Positions 54,677 through 61,192 of a DNA stretch of 64,000 bases are shown here, piece by piece. How positions within the stretch are numbered: the stretch's first letter is position 1; each line of letters opens with the position of its first letter. Source of the stretch: Parapedobacter soli (GTDB lineage: Bacteria; Bacteroidota; Bacteroidia; Sphingobacteriales; Sphingobacteriaceae); contig NZ_JAMXAY010000011.1 of NCBI RefSeq assembly GCF_025460835.1, positions 1 through 64,000 of the forward strand, given 5' to 3'. The translations under genes were made by a program, and so were the position numbers. The notes below the pieces were generated by a model. The model was given only the letters and a program-made list of their open reading frames with translations. It searched no databases and was not told the origin of the DNA.

Positions 54677-55768
54677 ATGAAACTAAATATAGCGCAATTG
54701 CCCGGCGACGGGATAGGGCCTGAAGTTGTGGCGCAGGCGGTTAAGGTAGTCGACGCGATTGCCGAGAAATTCGGACACGAGGTAAACTGGACATCGGGAG
54801 TGACCGGTGCGGCGGCGATTGATGCCGTGGGCGACCCTTACCCTGATGCGACGCACGAAATCTGCCTGGCTGCGGATGCCGTACTGTTCGGTGCCATTGG
54901 CCACCCCCGTTACGACAATGACCCCAAGGCGCCCGTGCGCCCCGAGCAGGGCCTATTGAAAATGCGTAAGAAGCTTGGCTTGTTTGCCAATGTACGACCC
55001 ACGTTTACCTTCCCTTCGCTGATAGACAACTCGCCATTGAAAAGAGAGCGTATCGAGGGAACAGACCTGGTCATCCTCCGGGAGCTCACCGGGGGCATCT
55101 ACTTCGGCGAACGGGGCCGGAAAGATGGTGGCGACACCGCTTTCGATACCTGCACCTACACCCGCGAAGAGGTACGTCGCTTAGCGAAACTGGGCTTTGA
55201 AATGGCCATGAGCCGCCGCAAGAAACTATGCTGTGTGGATAAGGCCAACGTACTGGAAAGCTCCCGACTGTGGCGCGAAACCGTACAGGACATGGAAAAA
55301 GATTTCCCCGAAGTGGAAGTGAGCTACGAATTTGTGGATGCCGTGGCGATGCGCCTGGTGCAATGGCCCAGCACGTATGACGTACTGATCACCGAAAACC
55401 TCTTCGGCGACGTCCTAACCGACGAGGCCTCGGTTATCTCCGGATCCATGGGACTAATGCCTTCGGCATCTATCGGTGTGCACACCTCACTATTCGAGCC
55501 CATACACGGATCGTACCCCCAAGCCGCTGGCAAAGACATCGCCAATCCTCTGGCTACGGTCTTATCGGCCGCCATGATGTTTGAAGATGCGTTCGGCTTG
55601 CAGGAAGAAGGGGCACTCATCCGTTCGGTGGTTAACAAATCGCTTGCGGAAGGTATTGTCACCGAAGATTTGGCCGGCAAAAACAAGGCATATAAAACCA
55701 GTGAGGTGGGCGATTGGCTCACTGCCCAGGTCAGGCAGGCCGAGGTAGTTGAAACACCCGCTTCATGA
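54677..55768 (+). CDS. leuB: 3-isopropylmalate dehydrogenase
   Basis: This 363-residue NAD-dependent enzyme oxidises and decarboxylates 3-isopropylmalate. It has GDGIGPEV at the N-terminus, the LLKMRKKLGLFANVRP segment with substrate-binding arginines, CVDKANVLESSRLWR, and TENLFGDVLTDEAS with the metal-binding aspartates. GSYPQAAGKDIANP is the cofactor-proximal loop. The stop overlaps the ilvA start by four bases. Confidence 0.96.
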   Translation: MKLNIAQLPGDGIGPEVVAQAVKVVDAIAEKFGHEVNWTSGVTGAAAIDAVGDPYPDATHEICLAADAVLFGAIGHPRYDNDPKAPVRPEQGLLKMRKKLGLFANVRPTFTFPSLIDNSPLKRERIEGTDLVILRELTGGIYFGERGRKDGGDTAFDTCTYTREEVRRLAKLGFEMAMSRRKKLCCVDKANVLESSRLWRETVQDMEKDFPEVEVSYEFVDAVAMRLVQWPSTYDVLITENLFGDVLTDEASVISGSMGLMPSASIGVHTSLFEPIHGSYPQAAGKDIANPLATVLSAAMMFEDAFGLQEEGALIRSVVNKSLAEGIVTEDLAGKNKAYKTSEVGDWLTAQVRQAEVVETPAS

Positions 55769-57065: not shown

Positions 57066-57189
57066 TTATCCACACATTACTTTACAAGCGCGGCAAATAC
57101 AATCATACGCTCCTGATAGACAACATATTGTCCGACACTTAACCCACACCACTTATCCACAATGTGTATAATTCCACATCTGTTGATAA
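57066..57189. promoter_or_regulatory. cluster of DnaA-box sequences upstream of the nrd operon
   Basis: TTATCCACA occurs at 57066-57074 and 57153-57161, both on the plus strand. TGTGTATAA at 57163-57171 is the complement of TTATACACA, and TGTTGATAA at 57181-57189 is one base off a box. The first two match the DnaA consensus TTATNCACA exactly. An imperfect palindrome GACAA-CATA-TTGTC (57119-57132) lies between them and could be an NrdR-like site. The cluster lies about 100-230 bases before the first nrd gene. In E. coli, DnaA binds upstream of nrdAB and controls it, so the same idea is plausible here. Confidence 0.65.
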
Positions 57190-57291
57190 CAATTACTACC
57201 TATCTGGGTTTAAATAGTTGATATTTGTTCAAGGCTACAACTTACCAACCTCACGGTAAAGATAAAGTTGAACATTAAAATTTTATAGCGT

Positions 57292-57528
57292 ATGACACGG
57301 ATTATTAAGTTCGAAAAAAATGATTGCGTACCCTGCAACCAAGTGTCTGAGTTTCTCGACCGCAGGGGTGTTTCCTATGAGAAAGTGAATCCGTTTGATA
57401 AGCCGGAGCTCGCCATCCAATATAAGGTCCGTACCGTACCCACGGTTATCGTACTGAATCAGGATCAAGAGACCCAGCGCATCATTGGGTTCAAACCGGA
57501 AGAGCTATCAGCCTTGACCGTACAGTAA
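57292..57528 (+). CDS. thioredoxin-family protein (NrdH-like)
   Basis: This 78-residue protein has the thioredoxin fold with a CVPC active-site motif at residues 12-15 and a cis-proline region VRTVPTVIVL. CxxC proteins of this size beside nrdIEF usually donate electrons to the reductase in place of NrdH. It is the first gene after the DnaA-box region. It is larger and less charged than a typical glutaredoxin. Confidence 0.82.
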   Translation: MTRIIKFEKNDCVPCNQVSEFLDRRGVSYEKVNPFDKPELAIQYKVRTVPTVIVLNQDQETQRIIGFKPEELSALTVQ

Positions 57529-57634
57529 CAAGGTAAGCCCTGGCGGGTCTACGGTAGACGCGCGCGGTGCGGTATAATAACAATAAGCAGGGACCCCCTC
57601 GGTATGTGGGGGTTTGGCATCTAAAAAGGTTCGT

Positions 57635-58051
57635 ATGATGGAAAGGATATATTACGACAGCAAAACGGGCAACGTGGAGCGGTTTATGCGGAAAATAGCC
57701 GAAGCAACCGGGTGGGAGACTGAGAAAATCCAACCCGACACAGTGGCCGTACAAGAAGGGCACCTGGTGACGTTCACCACACGGTTTGGCGAGATTCCAG
57801 AAACCACCAAAAACTTTTTACAGCAGGCAAGTCCATATATACTATCTGTATCATCGAGCGGCAACCGCAACTGGGGGCAGAATTTTGCGGTAGCCGGAAA
57901 CAAGATCGCCTCCGAATACGGTATCCCATTGGCATTGAAATTTGAGCTATCGGGAACCAACGAAGATATCAATGAATTTATCGCCATCATTAAAGCAAGG
58001 AGAAACCATGGTAACAAACGAGGTAGCAAAGAGCTGGATATTGCTCAATAA
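57635..58051 (+). CDS. nrdI: flavodoxin-like NrdI protein
   Basis: This 138-residue flavoprotein assembles the dimanganese-tyrosyl radical cofactor of NrdF. The FMN phosphate loop is YYDSKTGNVERF, and SSGNRNWGQNFAVAGN and FELSGTNEDI form the rest of the flavin site. ATG 57635 is chosen over an in-frame TTG 21 bases upstream. Its end overlaps the nrdE start region by 44 bases. Confidence 0.92.
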   Translation: MMERIYYDSKTGNVERFMRKIAEATGWETEKIQPDTVAVQEGHLVTFTTRFGEIPETTKNFLQQASPYILSVSSSGNRNWGQNFAVAGNKIASEYGIPLALKFELSGTNEDINEFIAIIKARRNHGNKRGSKELDIAQ

Positions 58052-60113
58052 CGAGATCATGATCAAAAATGACGAGGAATTTAGCCTGCACAAGGACAAA
58101 GAGGCTGTGCGCGCTTATTTCCTCGAGTATGTCAATAAAAACACGGTATTCTTTTACACGCTGAAAGAAAAAATAGACTACCTCATCGAAAACGATTATT
58201 ACATCAATTTCTATGAGTGGTTTACCTTCGAGGAGATGGAGCGTGTGTACGACTTCATTGCTTCCAAGAAGTTCCGTTTCGCTTCGTTCATGAGCGCTTT
58301 TAAGTTTTTCCAGAGCTATGCCCTGCGCGACGATTCGGGCGAGAAATTCCTGGAGCGCTACGAAGACCGTGTTGCCGCCGTATCGTTGTTCCTAGCCCGC
58401 CAGGCCGGTGTGGAACAAGCTTTGGAGTATGCCGAGCTATTGATCAACCAAGAGTACCAGCCAGCCACCCCAACGTTCCTCAATGCCGGCAAAAAAAGGT
58501 CGGGTGAACTGGTATCTTGCTTCCTTGATGAAATCGGCGATAACCTCAACGGCATCGGCTATGCGGTAGATTCGGCAATGAAATTATCGTCCATAGGTGG
58601 TGGCGTATCGTTCAACATCTCGAAGATCCGGGCACGCGGCGAGGCCATAAAAGGCGTGGAAGGCCGGGCCGGGGGCGTATTGCCCATCATGAAAATCCTC
58701 GAAGACACTTTCTCATACGCTAACCAATTGGGCCAGCGCCCGGGAGCTGGAGCGGTATACCTCAACATCTTCCACTCGGATATCGAGGAATTCCTCGACT
58801 GTAAAAAAATCAACGTAGACGAAAAAGTCCGTATAAAATCGCTCTCCATCGGCGTCATCGTACCCGATAAGTTCATGGAGCTGGCGGCCAAAGACGAACC
58901 TTGCTACTTGATTTATCCGCACACCGTGATGCAGGAATATGGCCAGTACTTGGACAACCTGGATATGGACGAGATGTATGACGAGCTCGTAACCAATCCG
59001 AAAATCAAGAAAAAGAAAATCAATGCCCGCCACCTGCTGGTCAAAATTGCCCAAACGCAGAAGGAAAGCGGTTATCCTTATATTTTCTTTAAAGAGAACG
59101 CCAATAGGCAGCATGCGTTGAACGGTATCGGCAAAGTCAAGTTCTCGAACCTCTGCACCGAAATCATGCAAGTGTCTGAAGTATCCGACATCAACATATA
59201 CGGACAGGAAGACACCATCAGGTACGGCATCTCATGCAACCTGGGTTCGCTCAATATCGCTACGGTGATGGACAATAAACGGATTGAACAATCCGTCAAA
59301 ATCGCGATGCGCGCGCTCACCATGGTAACCGACGTGACCGATATTGCCATGGTACCTTCTATCCAGAAGGCCAACCGCGAATTGCATAGCGTGGGCTTAG
59401 GGGCAATGAACCTCCACGGCTTCCTCGCCAAAAACTTCATCATGTACGAAAGCGAAGAAGCACTGGATTTTGCCAACGTATTCTTTATGATGGTAAACTA
59501 CTACTCGCTGCAGGCATCGATGGAAATCGCACGAGAGCGGAAGCGGACATTCGAAGGCTTCGAAAAAACGGCTTATGCCGATGGGTCGTACTTCGATAAA
59601 TACGTAAGCCGCGATTATTTCCCAACCACCATCAAGGTCACCGAGTTGTTCGCAGGTATCGACATTCCGTCCATGGAGGATTGGAAAGTATTGAAAGAGC
59701 AAGTGAAGGAACACGGCATATACCACGCCTACCGGATAGCGATTGCACCCAACCAGTCTACCTCATACATCATGAATGCGACCGCTTCGGTGATGCCGAT
59801 TGTAGATACGATAGAAGTACGTGAGTATGGCGACAGCACAACCTATTACCCCATGCCATACCTCACCAATGAGAACTACTTCTATTACAAGTCGGCGTAT
59901 GATATGGACCAGATGAAAGTACTGCGGTTGATTTCAGTCATCCAGCGGCATGTAGACCAAGGGATATCCACCATCCTGCACACCAACTCCAAGGACAATA
60001 CCCGCGATTTGGCGAAGTACTACATCTACGGGCATAAAATGGGATTGAAATCGCTGTATTATACGCGGACACGGAAATCATCGATTAACGAATGTGTATC
60101 GTGTTCGGCATAA
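58008..60113 (+). CDS. nrdE: class Ib ribonucleotide reductase, large subunit
   Basis: This 701-residue catalytic subunit reduces ribonucleoside diphosphates. Key cysteines lie in GELVSCFLDEIGDN, NLCTEIM and the C-terminal pair of NECVSCSA, which exchanges electrons with thioredoxin-like proteins. ATG 58008 is preferred because AAGGAGA, a clear Shine-Dalgarno sequence, lies just upstream and the family starts at this point. The frame is open for 22 more codons upstream inside nrdI. With NrdI and NrdF next to it, this is a class Ib system. There is no N-terminal ATP-cone, so allosteric inhibition by dATP may be weak. Confidence 0.94.
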   Translation: MVTNEVAKSWILLNNEIMIKNDEEFSLHKDKEAVRAYFLEYVNKNTVFFYTLKEKIDYLIENDYYINFYEWFTFEEMERVYDFIASKKFRFASFMSAFKFFQSYALRDDSGEKFLERYEDRVAAVSLFLARQAGVEQALEYAELLINQEYQPATPTFLNAGKKRSGELVSCFLDEIGDNLNGIGYAVDSAMKLSSIGGGVSFNISKIRARGEAIKGVEGRAGGVLPIMKILEDTFSYANQLGQRPGAGAVYLNIFHSDIEEFLDCKKINVDEKVRIKSLSIGVIVPDKFMELAAKDEPCYLIYPHTVMQEYGQYLDNLDMDEMYDELVTNPKIKKKKINARHLLVKIAQTQKESGYPYIFFKENANRQHALNGIGKVKFSNLCTEIMQVSEVSDINIYGQEDTIRYGISCNLGSLNIATVMDNKRIEQSVKIAMRALTMVTDVTDIAMVPSIQKANRELHSVGLGAMNLHGFLAKNFIMYESEEALDFANVFFMMVNYYSLQASMEIARERKRTFEGFEKTAYADGSYFDKYVSRDYFPTTIKVTELFAGIDIPSMEDWKVLKEQVKEHGIYHAYRIAIAPNQSTSYIMNATASVMPIVDTIEVREYGDSTTYYPMPYLTNENYFYYKSAYDMDQMKVLRLISVIQRHVDQGISTILHTNSKDNTRDLAKYYIYGHKMGLKSLYYTRTRKSSINECVSCSA

Positions 60114-60208: not shown

Positions 60209-61192
60209 ATGAGACAATATAAAGCCGTCAACTGGAATGAGCCAGAAAATGACTACGCATTGATGTTCTGGGAGCAGAATATCAAGCAATTCTGGATAGA
60301 CACGGAATACATCCCTTCCAAAGACATAGACAGCTGGAAGGCCCTTTCTCCCGAGATGCGGGAGTGCTACAAAAAGGCACTGGGAGGGCTTACGCTGCTC
60401 GATACGCTACAAAGCCATACGGGCATGCCCAAGATCATGGACCACATCGATTCGTTGCAAAACAAATCGGTACTGGCCTACATGTGTATGATGGAAGCCA
60501 TCCATGCCAAGTCTTACTCTACCATCTTCACCACGGTAGCCACGTCGCAAGACATTGAAGATATCTTCAATTGGGTGCAGAATAACAAGTATTTGCAGTT
60601 CAAGGCATCTACAATCGATAAGCACTACCGCAAACTAGCCGATGCGGATATCAGCAAAGAGGATCTTTTCATGGGGCTGTGTGCTTCGGTATTCTTGGAG
60701 TCTTTCCTCTTTTATAGCGGCTTCTTCATCCCGCTGTGGCTTTGCGGCCAGGGGCACATGGTTGCCAGTGCAGACATCATCAAAAAAATCGTTGCCGACG
60801 AGTCTATCCACGGCGTATTTGTGGGGCTTCTGGCACAAGATGTATACAAGACGCTCCCCCACCCCGAAAAAACGAAAGAAAAGCTGCTGGCCCTACTCAA
60901 CGAGCTGTATGAAAACGAGCTTAAGTATACAGAAGAAATCTATACCGAAGTAGGGCTTACAGCCGAAGTGAAGGAATATGTGCGTTACAACGCAAACAAA
61001 GCCCTGATGAACCTCGGGTTCGAGCCGATATTTGAGGTTAAGCGTGTAAACCCCATTGTATTGAACGGCCTCAGTGTAGAAACCACCCAGCATGATTTCT
61101 TCTCCAAGAAATCCACCAATTACGAAAAAGCAACGGAAATCGTGCATCTCCGCGATGAAGATTTCGTGATGGATACATCGATTGCCATATAG
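60209..61192 (+). CDS. nrdF: class Ib ribonucleotide reductase, radical (small) subunit
   Basis: This 327-residue ferritin-like protein carries the metal-tyrosyl radical. Metal ligands are in the MEAIHAKSYS and VADESIHGVF helices, and the radical Tyr and its surrounding are in the middle helices. The presence of nrdI favours a dimanganese cofactor, which is useful under iron limitation or oxidative stress. A bidirectional terminator follows 24 bases after the stop. Confidence 0.94.
   Translation: MRQYKAVNWNEPENDYALMFWEQNIKQFWIDTEYIPSKDIDSWKALSPEMRECYKKALGGLTLLDTLQSHTGMPKIMDHIDSLQNKSVLAYMCMMEAIHAKSYSTIFTTVATSQDIEDIFNWVQNNKYLQFKASTIDKHYRKLADADISKEDLFMGLCASVFLESFLFYSGFFIPLWLCGQGHMVASADIIKKIVADESIHGVFVGLLAQDVYKTLPHPEKTKEKLLALLNELYENELKYTEEIYTEVGLTAEVKEYVRYNANKALMNLGFEPIFEVKRVNPIVLNGLSVETTQHDFFSKKSTNYEKATEIVHLRDEDFVMDTSIAI

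Follow-up and report, generated by a model that had tools for sequence, protein, structure and literature searches.

A conserved array of probable DnaA boxes at a class Ib ribonucleotide reductase promoter and its counterparts in Bacteroidia

Which protein reads the cluster of DnaA-box-like sequences that lies directly upstream of a ribonucleotide reductase (RNR) operon in the 64-kb stretch of DNA analyzed here (the window), and what would that protein do there? The window comes from a draft genome of 5.17 Mb with a completeness of 99.99% (the tool's figure), and the closest relatives of its nrdE are found in named Parapedobacter (Sphingobacteriaceae), at an identity of up to 95%. The genes are arranged in the order nrdH-nrdI-nrdE-nrdF, and nrdI, nrdE and nrdF all score above the curated class Ib cut-offs, which confirms the class given to the operon in the initial annotation:

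57292..57528, + strand: nrdH-like glutaredoxin gene, the first gene of the operon (TIGR02194 match below its cut-off)
57638..58051, + strand: nrdI (TIGR00333, over cut-off)
57942..60113, + strand: nrdE, class Ib large subunit (TIGR04170, 1001.6 bits)
60209..61192, + strand: nrdF, class Ib small subunit (TIGR04171, 453.1 bits)

Between nrdH and nrdI there is also a G+C-rich hairpin (ACCCCC...GGGGGT, window positions 57593-57613), which by eye is kept in eight of nine Parapedobacter and is shorter in one. The nrdH-nrdI gap as a whole folds no better than shuffled sequences, and the hairpin possibly has a role in attenuation or processing.

Boxes and promoter elements of the nrdH leader

The leader upstream of nrdH carries the following elements:

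57066..57074, + strand: distal box TTATCCACA, a conserved island amid poorly alignable sequence
57118..57133, no strand assigned: NrdR-like dyad AGACAACATATTGTCC, weak, unconserved and judged to be chance, three mismatches from the NrdR-box consensus
57153..57161, + strand: box TTATCCACA, left half of a 19-bp inverted pair, 87 bp from the distal box
57163..57171, - strand: box TTATACACA, right half of the inverted pair, starting 57 bp upstream of the -7-like element
57181..57189, - strand: proximal (degenerate) box TTATCAACA, starting 39 bp upstream of the -7-like element and invariant in 9/9 Parapedobacter leaders
57196..57200, + strand: CTACC, a conserved block recognized by eye about where a -33 element would lie
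57220..57227, + strand: GATATTTG, a -7-like element of the Bacteroidetes promoter type TAnnTTTG, differing in its first base

Two exact copies of TTATCCACA and one inverted TTATACACA within 106 bp, together with one degenerate box, had been reported in the initial annotation, and all of these are present, the first three at 57066, 57153 and 57163 and the last as TTATCAACA on the minus strand at 57181-57189. The strong dyad in the leader is the box pair itself, TTATCCACA-A-TGTGTATAA (57153-57171), for which one further genomic place was found within two mismatches, and the promoter region holds at least two 9-mers close to the DnaA-box consensus TTATnCACA (PMC5742627).

The strict pattern TTATNCACA occurs six times in the 64-kb window, three of them inside the 106 bp, against 2.08 expected for the whole window, and six were reached in one of 100 shuffles. 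Across the genome the pattern is hardly enriched, since its 158 occurrences compare with 130 of the reversed pattern. At this genome-wide rate about 7e-4 trios inside 106 bp are expected per genome, a figure that assumes uniform composition although the leader is AT-rich, and no other trio was equally tight among the matches listed (100 of the 158 TTATNCACA places). A lone TTATCCACA on the minus strand at window positions 55234-55242, inside a leuB-like ORF, was taken as chance.

The Bacteroidetes promoter consensus TAnnTTTG has been placed at -12 to -5 (PMC9723704), and because of this span the proximal box would lie at about -51 to -43. The -7-like element is presumably the promoter in use. 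By eye there is no good -33 element, and the box is fixed just upstream of the -33 region.

Conservation and fixed geometry in class Ib and nrdBA leaders

Such a cluster had been called unlikely to arise by chance, which is borne out by its conservation across leaders, the better test. From 93 sequences (the window, 12 anonymous and 80 named) we retained 84 class Ib leaders, having dropped L104, which has no nrdH, and eight identical leaders; many of the 84 are still close relatives, and leaders from close species are not independent. In the 300 bp upstream of nrdH that were scored, TTATNCACA occurs 53 times in 38 of the 84 leaders (shuffles: mean 1.57, maximum 6). The looser consensus TTWTNMACA was picked after inspecting the data, a choice of which the strict TTATNCACA count is independent, and gives 185 matches across 82/84 leaders, compared with 17.8 matches in the shuffles (in 16 leaders on average and 23 at most) and 20 matches in 16/84 leaders for the reversed control pattern. 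At least two TTWTNMACA are present in 67 of 84 nrdH leaders versus 17 of 2812 300-bp windows elsewhere in these loci, and the density is 2.20 boxes per 300 bp versus 0.094 in these other windows; AT-rich windows (AT ≥65%, n = 369) hold 0.182 boxes each. The alignment of nine Parapedobacter leaders shows little variation between the inverted pair and a point just beyond the -7 element. The presence of the boxes in relatives, the main test named in the initial annotation, was thus found across genera, and their geometry across Bacteroidia families.

This geometry is narrow. The inverted box starts 39 bp upstream of NANNTTTG in 64 class Ib leaders, 38 bp in 11 and 40 bp in two, that is, in 77 of the 84; the box-promoter geometry is missing from L043, L128, L130, L137, L138, L139 and L140 (7/84), among which L128 and L137 have a box and no TTTG at the expected distance. 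Of the 77 leaders, 63 have a distal plus-strand box, allowing one mismatch, either 88-90 or 114-116 bp farther upstream than the proximal one (34 at 88 and 17 at 90); at four shifted offsets the counts are 0, 3, 5 and 1.

The same geometry recurs upstream of nrdBA operons, which are probably class Ia. A match to NrdB was obtained in 64 of 99 Bacteroidia genomes, and 700-bp leaders (two of them shorter) were taken from these; three weak matches of 33-35% identity (G053, G096 and G132) were kept within the 64 and scored as misses. The region upstream of nrdB was examined because nrdB precedes nrdA in these operons; a first scan upstream of nrdA had given boxes in 3/17 loci (five in L045, one in each of two others), with one locus lacking upstream sequence. 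In the nrdBA leaders the distance between box and -7-like element is 59 bp in 37 cases and 39 bp in 11, any other distance from 25 to 60 bp accounting for three cases at most, and those with a box at 59 often have a more degenerate copy at 39. Counting 38-40 or 57-60 bp, the geometry is present in 40/64 nrdBA leaders and missing in 24/64, beside the 77/84 of class Ib; the number falls to 0 or 1 with each of five shifted distance sets, and 1/4121 of the other 400-bp windows has it. Operons of the class Ib and nrdBA types, with a large-subunit identity of only about 30%, thus share a single promoter plan.

Some places away from these leaders also carry the motifs. In L045 (G037) five TTWTNMACA occur in 350 bp between nrdB and nrdA, including two TTATCCACA-N4-inverted pairs. 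Near copies of the nrd promoter were seen outside nrd in L318 (G004:C2:255341-255387, minus strand) and L306 (G005:C13:1472-1518, minus strand), each with the box pair, a CTTAC/CTACC block and a -7 element. Judged by eye, they lie next to a gene for a nuclease-like protein, or next to one for an ATPase-like protein together with a transposase-like fragment; directly downstream on the same strand there is no ORF of 60 aa, and the copies perhaps drive a non-coding transcript. In the window genome the box-to-promoter pattern occurs three times, nrd being one of them, and the reversed control also three times, and therefore no wider regulon can be claimed.

The protein that reads the boxes

We consider it probable that the region is a class Ib RNR promoter with a conserved DnaA-binding array, at which DnaA most likely activates transcription and ties dNTP supply to replication. 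DnaA was found in 40/41 genomes, and in 94/99 of a second set. Compared with domain IV of E. coli DnaA (1J1V), the recognition motif is kept, with DHST for DHTT and thus S at T435, and DHST was present in all 23 DnaA proteins read from the family (Sphingobacteriaceae). Arg399, T435 and helix 434-451 are numbered as in the E. coli protein, in which the helix reads TnCACA (PMC5742627). The boxes of the nrd leaders, the nadA-nadB gap and the dnaA leader are alike in their letters, with position 5 free and position 6 either C or A, and TTATCAACA itself stands 54 bp before the dnaA start codon in 8/9 Parapedobacter. These likenesses, all read from sequence, make DnaA the predicted binder of the array.

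Position 6 also varies with the recognition helix. Summed over the 84 class Ib leaders it is C in 119 boxes and A in 66. In nrdBA genomes whose DnaA has DHAT (GGKDHATV, n = 42) the count is 9 C to 47 A, and in those with GGRDHSTV or GGRDHTTV (n = 10) it is 5 C to 4 A, A being found in 4/8 boxes of the nine GGRDHSTV genomes and in 0/1 of the one GGRDHTTV genome. Five nrdBA genomes with other helix spellings give 2 C and 2 A, and seven that yielded no helix have A in 4/4. This association would fit DnaA as the reader, with phylogeny as a confounder, since families are not independent and the GGRDH group is small. A broader proposal is that in Bacteroidia without detected NrdR, DnaA acts as a general regulator of class I RNR, whatever enzyme of this class the lineage has, through sites about 39 and/or 57-59 bp upstream of the -7 element, driving transcription and having co-evolved with its sites through the recognition helix; this we put forward tentatively, with doubt slightly outweighing belief.

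The main rival holds that the boxes are operators of a dedicated, hitherto undescribed RNR regulator of Bacteroidia, whose sites would resemble DnaA boxes (TGTTNAWAACT-type direct repeats 18-20 bp apart). The nrdBA boxes lend it some weight: they are mostly TTTTTAACA or TTTTAAACA, off the consensus TTATnCACA (PMC5742627), their own consensus TGTTaAAAAct has a conserved flank and mostly A at position 6, and their tandem spacing, mostly 20 bp, is more rigid than clusters of DnaA boxes need. Moreover, TTATCCACA is not enriched in two DHAT genomes, being rarer there than its reversed control (G092, 39 vs 62; G082, 50 vs 73), while it is commoner than the control in G071 (55 vs 20) and G129 (68 vs 20). 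For GTTWTNMACAT two genomes were counted, and in each the control is the commoner (G092, 57 vs 87; G129, 35 vs 41); genome-wide counts of TTATCCACA and GTTWTNMACAT located no origin in the DHAT group. Nevertheless, a single such regulator would have to recognize TTATCCACA as well as TTATCAACA in one and the same position, the likely oriC and the dnaA leader share these letters, and the box letters track the recognition helix of DnaA, confounded as this is by phylogeny; we regard a dedicated regulator as unlikely. In G129, which belongs to another Bacteroidia family, a broad TTATCCACA-rich zone was observed (G129:C2:199568-276806), perhaps around its origin.

Closely packed consensus boxes that include an inverted pair might also mark a replication origin, or a datA-like DnaA-titrating site, that came to lie upstream of nrd by accident, and the GC skew does cross zero nearby. 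In the window it falls from a value near +0.04 at 46-52 kb, passes zero and reaches -0.10 at 62-64 kb. Over the 64 kb seen, this change is gradual, follows the gene strand and runs opposite to what an origin would show, so the skew test suggested in the initial annotation gave no origin-type minus-to-plus switch at the boxes, and yet was not clean, zero being crossed gradually around the site. The spacing to the promoter is moreover fixed in nrd leaders, and a likely oriC lies elsewhere, in the gap between the divergent nadA and nadB, which is on contig C95 of the window genome (L173, G000:C95:29000-32500, about 1400-1840). At least one TTWTNMACA is present in 21/23 such gaps of the family, two having no box, and in Parapedobacter the boxes are at conserved places. 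On contig G004:C5 of a relative, sampled with 5-kb gaps so that minimum and maximum refer to sampled bins, cumulative GC skew is lowest and box count highest in the nadAB bin (nine boxes per 10 kb, the next bin having four), about 50 kb from the contig end; at dnaA, 356 kb from nadAB, there is no comparable skew minimum or box peak. From skew and box count in this one relative, the gap is likely to be oriC, and the nrd box letters recur in it. In the single contig of G023, 20 sparse skew samples were too noisy to place the origin, and the first of them held the nadA-nadB box cluster. An origin at the nrd site was accordingly rejected on the gradual, opposite-sense skew and the likely oriC at nadA-nadB, and an origin or titrating site set there by accident is very improbable.

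NrdR has been called the universal bacterial RNR repressor, with operators that consist of two 16-bp palindromes, mostly separated by 15-16 bp (PMC12051234). NrdR (TIGR00244) was found in 0/60 genomes, including the window's own and 23 from beyond the family, with 9/14 controls positive. The initial annotation had noted an NrdR-like dyad, and a weak one does exist at 57118-57133, but it has no conservation in the alignment of nine Parapedobacter leaders and did not hold up as a regulatory site. No conserved pair of 16-bp palindromes 15-16 bp apart is present in the leader, and sites within two mismatches of the NrdR-box consensus occur in 1/84 class Ib (L140) and 3/64 nrdBA leaders. Control by NrdR boxes, as in most bacteria, was rejected on the undetected NrdR and the unconserved dyad and is hardly credible here. 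L140, from a MAG labelled Sebaldella, has a pair of NrdR-type boxes at 16-bp spacing, which start at 36 and 68 bp upstream of nrdH; one matches the consensus exactly and the other deviates from it at two positions. Rex and LytTR sites were also considered and put aside.

Chance or AT-rich composition, for which one could cite an AT-rich leader in which short patterns are common, is exceedingly improbable, as far fewer boxes are obtained from shuffles and the reversed pattern, in AT-rich windows and at shifted distances, and the conservation counts rule out a chance origin.

Proposed control and its relation to known systems

With DnaA as the preferred reader, the protein would bind the proximal inverted box and contact RNA polymerase from this fixed upstream position. 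Given a -7 element that occupies -12 to -5, the bound box would lie at about -51 to -43; in Parapedobacter two more boxes stand 18 and 28 bp farther upstream, and the distal box is beyond them. DnaA would then most likely activate the operon, or set its level via DnaA-ATP/ADP, such that dNTP supply follows replication initiation. Activation is favored because the box is fixed just upstream of the -33 region and no good -33 element is seen by eye. Full occupancy including the distal box, which would leave room for a loop, could instead loop the DNA and repress. That DnaA couples dNTP supply to initiation had been proposed in the initial annotation; conservation and geometry speak for it, and both the binding and the direction of control are what we infer.

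The RNR of Bacillus subtilis belongs to class Ib. DnaA has been proposed as a regulator of RNR genes in B. subtilis and Caulobacter, where according to the review the nucleotide switch had not been analyzed (PMC8203912). The claim that DnaA control is seen "here for class Ib" accordingly stands as to the class and is not wholly new, given the proposal for B. subtilis. The likeness to these two bacteria is the proposed action of DnaA at RNR genes, and a conserved fixed geometry goes unmentioned for them in the available part of that review (PMC8203912). For E. coli nrdAB the review describes possible activation when DnaA-ADP, or DnaA-ATP at a low level, occupies the high-affinity boxes, and repression when DnaA-ATP is high (PMC8203912). 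The window leader resembles this class Ia operon in having DnaA boxes directly upstream of an RNR promoter, and differs from it in the class Ib genes, the Bacteroidetes-type promoter, the one fixed distance across genera and the undetected NrdR, as well as in DnaA binding being predicted here.

Two further kinds of RNR control bear comparison. The NrdR regulon likewise has a conserved operator upstream of RNR operons, whereas here motif and spacing differ and NrdR is undetected. The cobalamin riboswitch (RF00174) is likewise a control element in an RNR leader, and was found in the class Ib leader of L130 (Pararcticibacter), which is without the box geometry, and in 5/7 nrdBA leaders scanned; L064 and L066, the only Parapedobacter-labelled loci scanned, gave no match. 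The places are:

L130:4066-4259, cobalamin riboswitch
L213:2397-2535, cobalamin riboswitch
L214:2445-2652, cobalamin riboswitch
L215:2416-2556, cobalamin riboswitch
L216:1737-1942, - strand, cobalamin riboswitch
L217:1585-1721, - strand, cobalamin riboswitch

In L217 the riboswitch follows the boxes.

The literature searched, which consisted of titles and abstract openings with few subscription papers, contained nothing on DnaA boxes upstream of nrd genes in Bacteroidota. If DnaA is confirmed, what is new would be the fixed geometry, common to class Ib and nrdBA operons of genomes in which NrdR was not detected. RNR determines the supply of dNTPs, and bacteria without a findable NrdR need another solution. 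If the reading is true, the coupling of initiation to dNTP supply would be directly testable in tractable Bacteroidetes, and these leaders would offer a well-defined promoter layout for activation by DnaA, shared by differing types of RNR operon.
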